Below are positions 30,391 to 35,859 of a stretch of 35,859 bases of DNA, piece by piece. Position 1 is the stretch's first letter, and each line of letters starts with the position of its first letter. The stretch covers positions 1 to 35,859 of the forward strand of contig CAMVIN010000008.1 of the NCBI GenBank assembly GCA_947167565.1, given 5' to 3'. The stretch comes from an uncultured Clostridia bacterium (GTDB lineage: Bacteria > Bacillota > Clostridia > Lachnospirales > Lachnospiraceae). Made by a program: the position numbers and the translations under genes. Below the pieces are notes generated by a model, which ran no database searches, was not told where the DNA came from, and worked only from the letters and a program-made list of their open reading frames with translations.

Positions 30391-30834
30391 GGAACAGTTT
30401 AATCAATATTTTTTAATTATACACTAGTATTGTGTTTTTTTTGTGTTAGCAGATTCTTATCGTGGATGAGTTGGATAGCAGTATTCACTTTAAACTCACC
30501 AGTCAATGCCGGTGGTAATGGAAATATTCCGGCGAGATATCAGGATCGTTATTAGAACGGAACGTATGAGGTGGTGCTTGTACAGAAAGCCCTTACCGGG
30601 CGAATGCAGATACCATCAGCAGCACATGTGGACCAGATGGAGGGAGGCTGGGATGCCGGTAAGAAGAATCGAAGCACACTGGTAGGAAAGACAATGCTGG
30701 CGGGAATGGAGAAAAGCATCATTCATAACTTTTTTTGTCACAAACGATAAAAGTGTGTTATACTGGAAAAAAATTCTTTTAGGATTTAAAGGAAGAATAC
30801 AGGGAAATAGTTGGGAATGATGATTATCATCAAG
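30391..30834. other. Region of decayed coding fragments
   Basis: No intact gene lies between 30391 and 31001. At 30453-30503 on the plus strand the frame reads ILIVDELDSSIHFKLTS, close to the Walker B region of overlapping-repair-like (OLD/AAA) ATPases, then stops. From about 30505 another frame reads for about 80 codons (NIPARYQDRY, a stop, then YEVVLVQKALTGRMQIPSAAH and GGWDAGKKNRSTLVGK) and looks like former coding sequence of a family I do not recognise. A promoter at 30735, the palindromic element at 30834 and a dyad at 30925 occupy the rest up to gene A. Confidence 0.5.
30735..30764 (+). promoter_or_regulatory. Sigma-A-type promoter upstream of gene A
   Basis: TTGTCA (30735-30740), an 18-bp spacer and TATACT (30759-30764). 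Transcripts would carry a leader of about 230 nt through the palindromic element and the dyad before reaching gene A at 31002. Confidence 0.55.
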
Positions 30835-30908
30835 ACATTGGTACCGTGTATCATTACAAAACAATTAAATTTAGTTAATATTTTCTTAAAGGTACACGGT
30901 ACCAATGT
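30834..30908. repeat. 75-bp palindromic element, copy 1
   Basis: The ends are perfect 16-bp inverted repeats, ACATTGGTACCGTGTA (30835-30850) and TACACGGTACCAATGT (30893-30908), around an AT-rich core of 42 bp that itself contains a short ATTAA/TTAAT dyad. It is identical over 75 bp to the copy at 31954-32028, while flanking sequences differ, so the element ends coincide with the inverted repeats. It has no coding capacity of its own. It resembles a MITE or a REP-type palindrome. Confidence 0.85.
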
Positions 30909-30924
30909 CGATTCAACATTTTAT

Positions 30925-30971
30925 AGTATCATATCCTAAAATAACATAACATATGAGAATAATATGATACT
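30925..30971. promoter_or_regulatory. 10-bp inverted repeat before gene A
   Basis: AGTATCATAT (30925-30934) and ATATGATACT (30962-30971) are perfect complements 27 bp apart, ending 30 bp before the TTG start of gene A. It could be an operator or a leader hairpin. Confidence 0.5.
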
Positions 30972-31001
30972 GTCATTTGATTAAGAAGGGAGAAATTAAA
31001 A

Positions 31002-31946
31002 TTGTATAATAAAACGGTATTGAAAGTGTTTATTTCAGGTCTGTTTCTTATATTAATATGCATAGTAGGAATTATAATAAACTGGATTGGGGGGGATGAT
31101 GAAGAAAAAGTTTTGATTAATTTACTTACAAATCCTGAAAATATGTCGCTAAATACTACTAGAGAAAAAAATAAGTATTGTTCTTATCAAATAGTGAATG
31201 GAATTTTATATTGGGATGGGAAAGACGGGTTTTGCCAATATGATTTTGCGGAGAAAAAATGGGAAACATTATGGACAGGAGAAATTTATAATTATAAAGT
31301 TGTGGATAAGAAGGTATTTACTACAGAACCTAGTGATGATTCCGGAGATGAAAATTCATGGAATATTTTATCGAGAAATTTGAATGATTTTAATCAAAAG
31401 AAAGTTTTGGTTGAAAAAGTTTATGATGAGATATTTGGTGAAGATTATATTTATTATTCTCGCATTGATGAAAAATCAGATAAAAGATACATTTTGCAAT
31501 TTGATGCAAATACTATGAAAAGTACAGAGGTTTTTTCTATTGATTTAAAGAGCGATAATAAAATTAAATACGAAGAGATGATAGCTGCATCTGAAAAATA
31601 TTTTGTTTTTTGTGAAAATGACTGTGTTTGGATATATAATAGAGAAGTTGGTCAGTGGAATTGTTTTACGATGCAGTTTAAAGAAAACAATTTATATCTT
31701 TGGATTCATGATATACAGATAGGGAAAACGGAATTATATATTCAGGGGCTGGTGTGTAATAATAATAAATCTAGTATAGCAGGTTATTATGTTGAAAAAA
31801 AATCGGATAAAAATGGTATTTGGAAGATTGATTTGGATACAGGACAAGGAAAGCAGATGATAAAAAAAATATATTATGGTGGAATATATATACTGAATAA
31901 TGTAGTATACGCAATTGACAAGGGAAAGTGTGAAGCGATAACTTGA
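31002..31946 (+). CDS. Gene A: membrane-anchored beta-propeller-like protein, possible immunity protein
   Basis: A 314-residue protein with one N-terminal membrane helix (about 6-28, VFISGLFLILICIVGIIINW) and an extracellular domain of repeated short strand pairs, such as NGILYWDGKDGFCQYDF, DYIYYSRIDEKSD and YILNNVVYAID, as in beta-propellers. Its C-terminal NGIWKIDLDTG segment resembles WNGLWKISLSD of gene B and WNGVWVFNYSE of gene C, so all three are probably distant paralogues. The TTG start has AAGGGAGA about 9 bases upstream and the next Met is deep in the protein. GC is low, unlike the RHS fragments next door. It may protect the cell against an RHS toxin; this rests only on position and paralogy. 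Confidence 0.7.
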   Translation: MYNKTVLKVFISGLFLILICIVGIIINWIGGDDEEKVLINLLTNPENMSLNTTREKNKYCSYQIVNGILYWDGKDGFCQYDFAEKKWETLWTGEIYNYKVVDKKVFTTEPSDDSGDENSWNILSRNLNDFNQKKVLVEKVYDEIFGEDYIYYSRIDEKSDKRYILQFDANTMKSTEVFSIDLKSDNKIKYEEMIAASEKYFVFCENDCVWIYNREVGQWNCFTMQFKENNLYLWIHDIQIGKTELYIQGLVCNNNKSSIAGYYVEKKSDKNGIWKIDLDTGQGKQMIKKIYYGGIYILNNVVYAIDKGKCEAIT

Positions 31947-31953
31947 ATTGAAG

Positions 31954-32028
31954 GACATTGGTACCGTGTATCATTACAAAACAATTAAATTTAGTTAATA
32001 TTTTCTTAAAGGTACACGGTACCAATGT
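31954..32028. repeat. 75-bp palindromic element, copy 2
   Basis: Identical to copy 1 at 30834-30908, in the same orientation, starting 8 bp after the gene A stop and ending 70 bp before the likely start of gene B. The two copies bracket gene A exactly, so recombination between them would delete it. Confidence 0.87.
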
Positions 32029-32098
32029 GGTTAAACCACAATATCAAAAAGAAAGGAATATGGTATATATTTGCTTCTATATATCATACAAGGTTTAT

Positions 32099-32980
32099 AT
32101 GAAAAATAAAAAATATATATCTCATATGATTATCACATGTTGTATAGTTTTATTATTTGTGACTGGATGTAAAAGTGAAAGTGATAGTTATTTGCAATTT
32201 ATGCAGCGCCAGGGAGTTACCGATAATTCACAGAGCCATTGGCAGAATAGTAACTTTGAGAGTGTACAGATTTCATCAAATGTGGCTTTCGTGTGTGGCG
32301 TTAAAGATGAATATGATAAGACTCTTTATCAATTAAAAAATGGAAGTTATAAAAAAATATCGGACGAGGCATATGATTTCTTTGAATTTGATGGAAAAGT
32401 ATACTATTTTAACAGTGAATATAAGGTTTGTTGCTATGATATGGGGACAGAGAGTACTACGGTAATTTTTTCCGCGCCAATGGGAATTCAATGGATTAGT
32501 TTGTACAATGGAAAAATTTTATGTGCTAGGTTGAATGAAAAATTTAATTATGTTTTAGAATTATATGATTTGAACGGTATATGTAAAAAAACATATTTTG
32601 AACGAAAGGGTATTATTACTCGTGCGGCTTGGATAGGGAATTTTGTTGTTATTCTGGAAGACCTTACAGCAGAGGTTTATGACTTAGAGAATCTAAAGAG
32701 CCATTATTTAATAAAAGAAGATGGATTATCTGATTCATATATGGTAAGTGATAAGGAAAATTTGTATTTAAGTTTTGGAAGATATATGATTGAAGGTAAT
32801 TATGATACGACAAAATCAGATTCACAATGGAATGGTCTATGGAAAATTAGTTTGAGTGATATGGAAAAAGATGAATGGAAAATGACGAAGATATCAGATA
32901 AATCGTATAATAAATTTTATTGTGTAGATGGCAAGCTATATGATGCAAAATTCAACTTAATAAAGTTGTCAAACAGTTGA
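32099..32980 (+). CDS. Gene B: beta-propeller-like lipoprotein, possible immunity protein
   Basis: A 293-residue lipoprotein. From ATG 32099 the N-terminus is basic, then hydrophobic, with a good lipobox LLFVTGC|KSESD. The mature part consists of repeated strand pairs (FDGKVYYFNSEYKVCCYDMG; LYNGKILCA) and is clearly homologous to gene C: YYFNSEY/YYLKSDY, IQWISLYNGKI/VQWFTVYNSKI and YMIEGNYDTTKSDSQWNGLW/YQIDANYNHVKLDKEWNGVW. The open frame extends to 31958, through the palindromic element, but AAGG before 32099 and the signal peptide fix the start. The stop lies 9 bp before the first RHS fragment and in its frame. A role in immunity to an RHS toxin is inferred. Confidence 0.78.
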   Translation: MKNKKYISHMIITCCIVLLFVTGCKSESDSYLQFMQRQGVTDNSQSHWQNSNFESVQISSNVAFVCGVKDEYDKTLYQLKNGSYKKISDEAYDFFEFDGKVYYFNSEYKVCCYDMGTESTTVIFSAPMGIQWISLYNGKILCARLNEKFNYVLELYDLNGICKKTYFERKGIITRAAWIGNFVVILEDLTAEVYDLENLKSHYLIKEDGLSDSYMVSDKENLYLSFGRYMIEGNYDTTKSDSQWNGLWKISLSDMEKDEWKMTKISDKSYNKFYCVDGKLYDAKFNLIKLSNS

Positions 32981-32989
32981 TATAAAAAT

Positions 32990-34341
32990 GTGAAGCAAGC
33001 ACTCTATATTGAAGTGACCGAGGCGGCGGAATCTGCAGAAAATTCTGCTACAGAAAACACAGACGAAACTGAGGATGATTCCGCTAATAAGGAAGCAGAG
33101 GAGCCGGATACCTTCACCTACGGCGACAAGAACCAGTTGATTTCCTATACCGACCCGGAGGGCAGGACAGAAAATTATACGTATGATATCAACAGCAACC
33201 TGACCAAGACGGTAGATAAGAATGGGAATACACATAAAAATACATATGATGGCGAATCCAAGCTGACATCGGTAACGGATGAAGATGGAGAAGAAGTCGT
33301 GGGCTACGCTTATGATACCGACGGTAATTTATCGGAACGAACAGTGGCGGGCAATGGCATGACAACAAGTTACGTCTATGATTACCAGAAACGGCTGACA
33401 ACGCTAAAGAACAGCACCGGCTCCGGCGTGATTTCAGAATATACGTCAGAATATCTGGCGAACGGTCAAAAGTCAAAGAAAATATCGAAAGTACAGAACA
33501 AGGACGGTAAGACCGAAGAGAAGACAGTCTTTGTCTGGGACGGAGATCAGCTGGTGATGGAATTGTCCGAGGGTGGAAAAGTAAAGAAACGTTATATAAG
33601 AGGAAATGACCTTGTGTTTGCTGATAAGGGGAATTCTTCAGAGAAAACGTTCTATGTGACGGACACTCATGGAAATGTGGTACAGCTGACGGATGACAGT
33701 GGTAAGGTGACGAAGACGTATGAGTATGACTCCTTTGGCAATGAAGTAAAACCGGAAAAGAAGGATGAAAACCCGTTCCGCTACTGCGGGGAATACTATG
33801 ATAAGGAGACGGAGGAAGTCTATCTCAGAGCAAGGTACTATCAGCCGGCAGTGGGAAGATTTTTGACAAGAGATAGTTATACCGGGGAGAGTGATGAGCC
33901 GGAGAGCCTGCATCTGTATACGTATTGCGAGAACGATGGGGTAAACTGTGTTGATCCGAGTGGGCATGATGCGATATGGTTGCAATATAAACATGGGGCA
34001 GCAGAACAGGGACATACAGTTTTGCTTATTCAAAATAGAAAATTGAAATGGTTTTATTTTTACTGGGGAGCACAAAGCGGAGTGATTGAAAAAGTTTTGG
34101 GTCCCTATGACAAAATAGTAAAGTTGGCAAATGTTAAAATAAAGCGAAATTTGTATGCTTTAAAGGTGATTTTAATAAAAGTTTGAAAAAAGCAAGACAA
34201 CTACATGGGCCATATAGTATAATTTTTAGTAATTGTTATCATGAATCGTTTAAAAGACCGAATAAAGCGTTTGAACGGTTGATAGAATTAATAAAGATAA
34301 ATGGAAGTGGTCAGCAAAAAAAGTGGTGTATATCGGATTGA
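32990..34341 (+). pseudogene. RHS/YD-repeat core with C-terminal toxin module, frameshifted, no N-terminus
   Basis: About 320 codons of YD repeats (DPEGRTENYTYD, DKNGNTHKNTYDG, YAYDTDGNLSERTV) lead into the RHS core end, RYYQPAVGRFLTRDSYTGESD and LHLYTYCENDGVNCVDPSGHD, which marks the point where toxin tips are exchanged. The tip follows: GHTVLLIQNRKLKWFYFYWG, then the frame ends at 34186. The sequence continues in the next frame as KGDFNKSLKKARQLHGPYS and IIFSNCYHESFK, ending at 34341, so one base was lost near 34158-34166, most simply an A in TTAAAGG. The tip layout, GHT then NCYH, resembles permuted papain-like (LRAT/NlpC-P60) enzymes. There is no ribosome site and no RHS N-terminus, so it looks like a displaced cassette. 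Confidence 0.8.
33797..33940 (+). repeat. RHS core-end repeat, copy 1
   Basis: This 144-bp segment matches 35344-35487 at 140 positions. The four differences are all at third codon positions and silent, so both encode the same 48 residues, from YDKETEEVYLRARYYQP to TYCENDG. It is the homology block that allows RHS tips to be swapped. Confidence 0.9.
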
Positions 34342-34386
34342 TTTGGTAAAGATAAGAGAATATTTGATTTGTTGAAAGGAGTTTTT

Positions 34387-35307
34387 ATGCGGAAAAAAAT
34401 TGTGGTCCCGGTAATTATTTGTAGCAGTGCTATTATACTTGGGTTATGCATATTTTTTATTTACCTATTTTTGAATAATAATCACAAGAAAGACCAATTT
34501 TCTGAATTATTGGAATTAAAAACGTTAGACACAGAGATACAGCATTGTCATAATATGGATGAAAAATACCAATTGACAGATGAGCATTTGCTGTATTTAG
34601 ATTCATCTAATTATAAATCTGATTTATATTGTGTCAACCGCCAGGACAAGTCTTCGAAAATTATAATTAAGCAGGTGTTGAGTTTTATTGAATCTGATGA
34701 AAAAATATATTACTTAAAATCAGATTATGGTGGTTCGGTAGGTGGAATCTATTGCTATGACACAATAACGGGTGAGAACCGAACGATAGTTTCTGAAGAG
34801 TTATGTGTGCAGTGGTTTACTGTTTATAATAGCAAGATTTTTTTATATTATTACGATGATGATGATGAGAATTTCGCGATAGGGCGATGTGGGGTGAATG
34901 GCGGAAAAATTAAGGAACTTATGATGTATGATGCGGATATACCTTTTAAAGCGATATTATGTGACGATGCAATTGTTTTTTTTAAATTAGATGCAATTGA
35001 TATCGTCTCATGGGCGGACACAGAGGTTAAAACATTATTGAGTATGGATTCTTTTGTGGATTACAATATAGCATATCTTGATGGACAAATACTCATTTCT
35101 GTAGAAGGGTATCAAATAGATGCAAATTATAATCACGTAAAATTAGATAAGGAGTGGAATGGTGTCTGGGTATTTAATTATTCGGAGTGGAAAAGTAAGC
35201 GAAATGATTATGAATTGAGTAAAATAGCAGAGAAACCTGTGAATAAGATGGTTATTAAAGATAATAAATTATATGATCAAAATGATGAAAAGATTGAAAT
35301 TAAATAG
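34387..35307 (+). CDS. Gene C: membrane-anchored beta-propeller-like protein, possible immunity protein
   Basis: A 306-residue protein with a basic N-terminus and one membrane helix (about 6-29, VVPVIICSSAIILGLCIFFIYLF), then an extracellular domain of strand pairs. It is clearly homologous to gene B along most of its length (YYLKSDY, YCYDTITGE, VQWFTVYNSKI, YQIDANYNHVKLDKEWNGVW, DNKLYD). AAAGGAG lies 5 bases before ATG 34387; the TTG at 34369 would overlap the ribosome site. It lies directly after the first toxin module, the usual place for its immunity gene, and directly before the second RHS fragment. Its intact state beside two broken RHS pieces suggests selection to keep it. Confidence 0.78.
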   Translation: MRKKIVVPVIICSSAIILGLCIFFIYLFLNNNHKKDQFSELLELKTLDTEIQHCHNMDEKYQLTDEHLLYLDSSNYKSDLYCVNRQDKSSKIIIKQVLSFIESDEKIYYLKSDYGGSVGGIYCYDTITGENRTIVSEELCVQWFTVYNSKIFLYYYDDDDENFAIGRCGVNGGKIKELMMYDADIPFKAILCDDAIVFFKLDAIDIVSWADTEVKTLLSMDSFVDYNIAYLDGQILISVEGYQIDANYNHVKLDKEWNGVWVFNYSEWKSKRNDYELSKIAEKPVNKMVIKDNKLYDQNDEKIEIK

Positions 35308-35337
35308 ACATGCGGTTCATGACCAATGCGGACGGTG

Positions 35338-35808
35338 ATGACGTATGATAAGGAGACGGAGGAAGTCTATCTCAGGGCAAGGTACTATCAGCCGGCAGTG
35401 GGAAGATTTTTGACGAGGGATAGTTATACCGGAGAGAGTGATGAGCCGGAGAGCCTGCATCTGTATACGTATTGCGAGAACGATGGGATGTTGGGGCGGC
35501 AATTGTACCTTTTATTCCAGGCTCATATACAGCAAAGGCGGTTAAAGGTGGCGTTAAAATTGCTACAAAAATACGGAAGGTTGATAAAGTTGTAAATAGT
35601 GGCAAAGTTATTGTAAAATTTCAAAAAAATGCTAAAGCAAAAAAAATCAAAAATTTTAGTAAACTTATTAAGAACGGTAAAATCACGATTAAGGTGGCAA
35701 GCAAAGCATCTGATTTTAGAAAAGAGAATGTATAAAGCATTTAACAATAATGCAGTGAAGAAAAACAACATGCTTTCAATACCGCTTGGAAAAGGCAATT
35801 TACATTAG
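35338..35808 (+). pseudogene. Truncated RHS core joined out of frame to a pre-toxin region
   Basis: The fragment starts abruptly within the RHS core at about 35344 and reads 48 residues identical to copy 1 up to YCENDG. It then switches at about 35487-35490 to a different frame that reads DVGAAIVPFIPGSYTAKAVKGG and a Lys/Val-rich stretch to a stop at 35735. DVGAAIVPFIPG is typical of the segment between RHS core and toxin in other proteins. A further frame continues after 35728 as MYKAFNNNAVKKNNMLSIPLG to a stop at 35808; MLSIPL faintly recalls HNH-type RHS toxins, which is weak. At least two frame changes and a 5' truncation make it non-functional as it stands. Confidence 0.7.
35344..35487 (+). 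repeat. RHS core-end repeat, copy 2
   Basis: Second copy of the 144-bp block described at 33797-33940, with four silent differences. Recombination between the copies would remove the first toxin tip and gene C and join the first RHS core to the second pre-toxin segment. Confidence 0.9.
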
Positions 35809-35859
35809 GAGCTTCCTGTATAATTTAAATATAGGAAGTTCACAAGAAGGAAGTTGATA

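Follow-up and report, generated by a model that had tools for sequence, protein, structure and literature searches.

A decayed RHS toxin locus in a Lachnospiraceae-type bacterium, with three predicted surface-anchored, probably propeller-shaped proteins as likely immunity proteins

The window analysed here, a stretch of 35,859 nucleotides, is the whole of contig C8 (CAMVIN010000008.1) in the assembly GCA_947167565.1 of an uncultured Clostridia bacterium of the Lachnospiraceae, which comprises 3.08 Mb in 271 contigs and is 95% complete. From position 30834 to its end, the forward strand carries a short palindromic element, gene A, a second copy of the element, gene B and an RHS core with a toxin tip, the remainder of which lies in another frame; gene C follows, and after it a further RHS core fragment and the beginning of a second, decayed tip. 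The contig ends at 35859. The GC content is 28-31% in the kilobases with A, B and C, as compared with 38-51% in the remaining ones. An Rfam scan of the window found nothing at gathering scores, and promoter-like sites in the window are near the number expected by chance (32, versus 25.2 +/- 3.8 in shuffles), so that promoters belonging to A, B and C themselves are not established. The comparison sets were 39 genomes of the genus, including the genome under study, and 397 genomes of the family, among them this genome and one other from the genus.

Gene A (31002..31946) starts with TTG at 31002, with AAGGGAG ahead of it, and gene C (34387..35307) with ATG at 34387, preceded by AAAGGAG; each product has a hydrophobic segment at its N-terminus. 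Gene B (32099..32980) probably starts with ATG at 32099 (or at 32061), the start of the listed open reading frame (ORF), 31958, falling within the palindromic repeat; its product has the lipobox LFVTGC. All three frames are open, and a simple lipobox and transmembrane (TM) predictor classes A and C as TM proteins and B as a lipoprotein. B and C share 27% identity (BLASTP, E 1e-18). By the same method A reaches E 0.027 against B and nothing significant against C, while an A-family profile (five rows) aligns with a B/C profile (four rows) over 278 columns, anchors included, at E 1.8e-9; a further profile comparison of A with B/C gave E 1.2e-8. The A-family profile also aligns with a profile of the proteins proposed as phospholipase C immunity at E 1.7e-6. 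Within the genus, the A family is present in 8 of the 39 genomes and the B/C family in 9, the present genome being counted in both; a two-row B/C profile has matches in 2 of the 397 family genomes, again including this one. A scan of a named genome collection with the A family returned four loci only, three titled as uncultured Lachnospiraceae metagenome-assembled genomes (“Lapin” isolates) and one as Eubacteriaceae, which, judged from the names alone, would be rabbit and mouse gut bacteria.

The first RHS piece consists of a core and the first part of a tip (32990..34186) and, together with the tip remainder, spans 32990-34341. It begins with GTG at 32990, ahead of which no Shine-Dalgarno sequence was seen, and aligns (tblastn) to an intact RHS protein of 2,041 aa from the same genus from residue 1387, or from 1241 if a weaker, alternative register is taken, up to residue 1880; roughly the first 1,240-1,390 residues, the N-terminus among them, are missing. 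The second piece runs from 35326 on: a core fragment (35326..35487) aligns to residues 1789-1837 of the same relative, after which the frame breaks, and the start of a different, decayed tip can be read by eye in another frame (35472..35735). Matches to the Rhs-associated core (TIGR03696) are significant in both pieces (2.7e-21 and 5e-11, respectively), and with the RHS repeats (PF05593, 8.5e-22) the locus has RHS/YD repeats and an Rhs-associated core ahead of a variable tip. Positions 35344-35487 are 97% identical to 33797-33940, and these 144 shared nucleotides stop about where the two tips diverge.

Neither piece is a secreted full-length RHS protein, and none with an N-terminus was found in the assembly, in which the three Rhs-core matches all lie in short open frames (90-401 aa). 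When residues 1-1324 of the relative served as query against the assembly, one middle fragment and a 30-residue scrap were the only returns, and comparison with the intact 2,041-aa protein detected no RHS remnant upstream of A. The gene order and frames are those of a preliminary description of this DNA, which had also called both RHS pieces broken, the three genes open and equipped with signal or anchor sequences, and B and C clearly related with A more distant. These points stand.

The tip adjacent to gene C is itself split between two frames. Its first part (33956..34183) carries the motif GHDAIWL...GHTVLL, and its remainder (34183..34341) an NC motif, as seen by eye in comparison with intact tips. 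The tip class is defined by GHDAIWL...GHxxxL and the later NC motif, and seven loci were assigned to it on this basis: the present one, one in genome G034, two in G022 (G022a and G022b), one in G002, and two in G248, which belongs to another genus. The five loci within the genus come from the 39-genome search, in which the remaining matches align chiefly over the common core and belong to proteins with different tips; the search of the family genomes found only the present genome and G248. In an alignment of four intact tips, the GH and NC columns are invariant. One of the G248 tips matches the TseH family (PF25218) over most of its length at E 7e-4, scoring 20 bits against a curated cut-off of 27, and the G002 tip matches Lnb_N at 0.05. 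Among PDB sequences, the tip profile comes closest to 6v98, “Cysteine hydrolase”, in a weak match (E 0.085); we take this entry to be TseH. Our best guess from these sequence matches is that the tip is a hydrolase of the permuted papain-like kind with the envelope as its target.

Seen from the toxin, a propeller-like gene follows the tip in all seven loci of the class, the two in G248 being called propeller-like by eye and from a weak B/C link. Where the tip is intact, as in five of the loci, tip and gene are separated by -4 to 34 bp, and six of the seven neighbours have an N-terminal TM segment. Some members are damaged: the propeller gene of G022b is cut by an insertion sequence, and that of G002 holds a run of N. 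The closest relative of the window's tip, in G034 (67% identity over 61 aa, some shared core included; 59% over 37 aa), is followed by the closest relative of C (35-36% identity), and this pair, along with the kinship of C with B, marks C as the immunity protein that probably belongs to the tip beside it. Moreover, the subclasses of tip and propeller agree. The present locus and G034 share the C type (tips 59% over 37 aa, propellers 35%), G022b and G002 share a p2 type (tips 46-49%, propellers 23-25%), and G022a alone pairs with an A-type propeller. The G248 locus has the same architecture as the window, with a tip and propeller, displaced toxin pieces, a displaced core-tip and propeller, and then orphan propeller genes, one of them broken. 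Thus, across loci, the gene lies directly downstream of the tip and its type changes with the type of tip, as is characteristic of immunity genes.

A wider pattern surrounds these pairs. The Rhs core occurs in 18 of the 39 genus genomes (50 rows, 47 above cut-off), from which 32 pairs of core and next gene were tabulated, one of them from a row below cut-off; the 18 rows left out comprise three from the present genome, G034, two copies of one locus, one insertion sequence, one contig end and ten second fragments or rows with no clear next gene. By the core motif L[HN]LY.YC, read by eye, 24 pairs have the RHS type of the window and eight have other types. The next gene is predicted to encode a lipoprotein (17) or TM protein (6) in 23 of the 24, the sole exception, at locus L151, appearing multi-TM by eye. 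The same holds for one of the eight pairs of other types (Fisher p 2e-5) and for 22 of 103 control ORFs (Fisher p 7e-12), the latter being mechanical ORFs of at least 100 aa rather than verified genes. Ten of the 20 window-type tips that were scanned pass a Pfam cut-off, the remainder being weak or unmatched: four are Zn-dependent phospholipases C, three phage lysozyme types, one GH75 and two DUF4474, of unknown function, so that 8 of the 20 match phospholipase C, lysozyme or chitosanase families.

Seen from homologues of A, B and C, the contexts are more mixed. In G022, an A homologue (42% identity) lies 17 bp after the intact 2,041-aa RHS gene, which has the same tip class, and in G033 another belongs to a series of surface proteins encoded after an RHS gene whose open frame spans 2,160 aa. 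RHS is thus near the A family in two of seven other genomes; contig ends are near it in four. Relatives of B and C outside the present genome occupy ten places in eight genomes, of which one is adjacent to RHS (G034, directly after the tip) and four lie in a conserved housekeeping locus. The others are found within a propeller run (G030), beside a probable restriction system recognised by eye and without RHS (G031, contig C14), among housekeeping genes (G031, contig C17) and as two short pieces, both at contig ends (G011).

Several further arrangements were seen in these surroundings. In G022 (L085, 3-3740; L051, 231-3416), the RHS gene is preceded by a secreted-looking partner of about 1,000 aa and a small TM-like protein, and a similar large partner stands upstream of the RHS gene in G033 (L053); such partners may be part of delivery. 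In four species (L102, L103, L106 and L107), a conserved housekeeping locus includes a gene for a propeller-like membrane protein of the C family, close to genes that by eye resemble those for dGTPase, primase and epoxyqueuosine reductase. This housekeeping-locus propeller is a possible ancestor of the immunity genes; given the mixed contexts of the B/C family, a resident propeller may have been the source from which they were recruited. Elsewhere in the present genome, contig C212 seems by eye to carry a comparable series of displaced tips, with small genes downstream of them. On contig C9 (L050, 2910-6668) there is a run of genes that are probably orphan immunity genes: a relative of a C212 downstream gene, an ADP-ribosylglycohydrolase-like gene and a SUKH-like gene, all labelled by eye, and a gene for an anchored protein matching DUF5050 at 2.8e-10. 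On contig C26 (L018, 4855-7723), two tandem related surface lipoproteins (36% identity) look propeller-like by eye; they have no Pfam propeller match and no RHS in the stretch examined, and are possibly further orphan immunity genes.

The ectodomains of A, B and C are probably beta-propellers related to DUF5050 (PF16472), judging from profile links. Against proteins that match the DUF5050 model, the A or B/C profile gives E 1e-5 to 1e-4, these being single-comparison values from small alignments; the linked proteins that match the model directly are the C9 protein already mentioned and that of L158 (5e-22). A profile link exists for 11 of the 24 next-gene proteins, seven of which were members of the alignments used and four were not. 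Among the controls, none of 20 window proteins and none of the eight next genes of other RHS types reaches a probability of 30 (best 9.1), and shuffled or unrelated sequences all stay below 5.

The kinship of A, B and C, their predicted anchors, the decay of the RHS pieces, the repeated adjacency of tip and propeller and the agreement of their subclasses were all computed, and we consider it likely that they reflect a polymorphic-toxin locus of the RHS kind, now decayed, in a Lachnospiraceae-type bacterium, with C serving as surface immunity protein against its cognate toxin, the tip next to it, and A and B as orphans directed at related tips. Since relatives of A and of C lie directly behind toxins of the same kind, the most likely role of A, B and C is to shield the cell surface from envelope-attacking toxins. 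As regards fold, direct binding, plugging of the active site, delivery and target, we infer the following course. Cassettes of RHS core plus tip would have been displaced from a main gene, itself not found in the assembly, and would then have decayed while the immunity genes stayed intact. The tip, as a papain-like (TseH-like) cysteine hydrolase, would be delivered to the outer face of neighbouring cells and would cut an envelope component there, peptidoglycan peptide being a guess. At the membrane surface, the membrane-tethered and probably beta-propeller ectodomain of A, B or C would bind the tip and plug its active site before it could act. The genes may still be under selection in this species.

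A number of observations weigh against this account. Neither A nor B is accompanied at this locus by a tip that would be its own. A, B and C themselves match no Pfam family above cut-off, nothing notable in NCBIfam and no DUF5050 model, and the A and B/C profiles have no significant match among PDB sequences (best E 0.36), so that “propeller” is a predicted label; DUF5050 is found by Pfam in just 2 of the 24 next-gene proteins at E 0.01. With HHalign, the propeller-like proteins of G248 give E 7.5e-5 against B/C and a weak E 0.006 against A, values on which common descent with the G248 propellers is not claimed. The scores of the tip class against TseH and PDB are weak: the G022b tip matches TseH at E 0.02 only and PPPDE peptidase at 0.008, and the intact G022a tip matches no Pfam family. 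The anchor of the G034 neighbour is interrupted by a stop, and the tip there is also interrupted. A homologues without visible RHS occur in G032 (where a GNAT-like gene adjoins), G028 (where the contig begins), and G030 and G031 (in runs of propeller-like genes recognised by eye, some with DUF5050 matches), all near contig ends, and in G002, where a weak match stands among propeller-like genes; the B/C relatives of G012, G035, G037 and G020, four of the eight other genomes, lie in one conserved housekeeping locus with no RHS in view. Outside the genus, genes next to RHS are mostly cytosolic-looking (11 with no anchor, four TM and one lipoprotein among 16 parsable of 29 loci), and two next genes of other RHS types within the genus match Imm40 and DUF6985, which ties the surface pattern to this RHS type. 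Lastly, the ratio of nonsynonymous to synonymous substitution rates (dN/dS) is 0.28 and 0.34 for A versus two species relatives, which counts in favour of the account, and 0.12 for B versus the G031 C14 relative without RHS (with a high dS of 2.4); such values compare species and average across the lineage.

The claims of the preliminary description that bear on function fare accordingly. It had called A, B and C membrane propellers, of which the membrane part agrees with the predicted anchors, while the propeller part has indirect backing from the DUF5050-related profile links, the direct Pfam and PDB comparisons giving no significant match. Its view of the three as likely immunity genes gains support, with the caveats above, from the adjacency of tip and propeller in seven of seven loci, and the homologues that it expected right after RHS tips were found behind the intact G022 gene (A) and behind the closest tip relative in G034 (C). 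It had also named homologues lying mostly away from RHS as grounds for abandoning the idea: for A, two of seven other genomes have RHS beside the homologue and in several others it lies at a contig end; the B/C family is mixed by this measure, half of the other genomes showing the housekeeping locus. Its further suggestion, a toxin that acts on or enters through the envelope, is consistent with the weak resemblance of the tip to TseH and with the fact that, across the genus, envelope-type tips are paired with surface proteins.

Of the alternatives, the one that survives best leaves the immunity reading unchanged. The apparent graveyard could be partly an artefact of assembly, an intact RHS gene having been lost or split at repeats, and we regard this as rather improbable while giving it real weight. 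The assembly is fragmented, its short contigs end at repeats so that an intact RHS elsewhere is possible, and on C8, C86 and C212 the RHS-system pieces and the 75-bp palindromic element are found at the ends of the contig or close to them. However, the split of the tip frame and the joins of RHS to B and to C all lie within one contig, and residues 1-1008 of the RHS query were not found despite 95% completeness. It is unlikely that A, B and C are instead resident surface propellers, serving in sensing, regulation or envelope maintenance and neutralising nothing, that happen to lie beside RHS debris in a recombination-prone region. C relatives do stand between housekeeping genes in four genomes, and the C26 lipoproteins, propeller-like by eye, exist elsewhere in this genome. 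Against this reading, such a gene follows every one of the seven tips, within 34 bp where the tip is intact, and the subclasses of tip and propeller match. That tip and propeller act jointly, the propeller being a surface receptor or an accessory toxin part, is very improbable: propellers are common binding modules, and further secreted-looking genes lie upstream of RHS in G022 and G033, but the genes bear the hallmarks of immunity instead, namely a position directly after the tip, a type that changes with tip class, and toxin-free orphans or runs.

The palindromic element, absent from the preliminary description, is a 75-bp near-palindrome (GACATTGGTACCGTGT...ACACGGTACCAATGT), two identical copies of which flank gene A on the forward strand, upstream (30834..30908) and between A and B (31954..32028). 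There are seven copies in this genome: two in the window, one each on contigs C26, C86 and C171, and two on C212. The base preceding the element is G in all seven, no consistent target duplication being seen, and three ORFs that run into it (one on C86, two on C212) receive from it the identical C-terminus RHWYRVSLQNY. By eye, the element interrupts two RHS-system genes and a NUDIX-like gene. It was not found in the 38 other genus genomes searched, its exact pattern occurs in one of the 397 family genomes (the present one), and none was found in viral contigs. A role as a toxin-specific recombination site was set aside as the main hypothesis, since some copies are situated within or next to unrelated genes (labelled by eye) and because the element was not found in other genomes or viral contigs. 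It is probably a private insertion resembling a miniature inverted-repeat transposable element.

The architecture is that of known systems in part. Rhs/WapA-type polymorphic toxins (Zhang et al. 2012, PMC3482391) have an RHS core, a variable tip, an immunity gene directly downstream and displaced modules that share the conserved core. The present locus has the same core and variable tip with a likely immunity gene downstream, along with probable displaced core-tip-immunity modules and orphan immunity genes; it differs in that the RHS group of one genus has mostly surface-type next genes, many of them with envelope-type tips. Tsi1 is a partial beta-propeller that blocks Tse1, a type VI peptidoglycan hydrolase (PMC3391265), and XAC2610 and PliI-Ah are described as having a similar fold (PMC10933484). 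The likeness lies in a hydrolase acting outside the cytoplasm and a (partial) propeller as its blocker, both of them predicted in the present case; Tsi1 resides in the Gram-negative periplasm, whereas A, B and C are predicted to be membrane-anchored and lie in RHS loci. When the A and B/C profiles were compared with PDB sequences, no match to a Tsi1 chain appeared up to E 10. TelC, a type VII lipid II phosphatase whose immunity protein is TipC, is a Gram-positive toxin active in the wall zone (PMC6193138) and is countered outside the cytoplasm (PMC12419801). Its chemistry and delivery differ from those of the RHS tip. To our knowledge, TipC is not a propeller. TsgL of T7SSg is called a DUF5050 beta-propeller (PMC11217815); with such propellers the present proteins have profile links in common, and there are direct Pfam matches in related surface proteins, A, B and C themselves having no model match. 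In the titles and abstract openings of open PMC papers, among the matches listed, no membrane-tethered propeller immunity for RHS toxins was found.

Conceivably, the arrangement is general. A membrane-tethered, DUF5050-related beta-propeller, recruited from a resident chromosomal propeller, could be the diversifying scaffold on which this Lachnospiraceae group builds its surface immunity to secreted RHS toxins, paired with several unrelated envelope-attacking tips such as the TseH-like hydrolase, zinc phospholipase C and a GH75-like chitosanase; we hold this broader proposal tentatively, at somewhat less than even chances. A set of RHS toxins in one genus seems to be countered by surface-tethered, probably propeller-shaped proteins across several enzyme classes. 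If this is true, the site of action of these RHS toxins would be the envelope rather than the cytosol. The natural pairs of tip and propeller are testable, and they suggest a possible function for many unannotated surface proteins.

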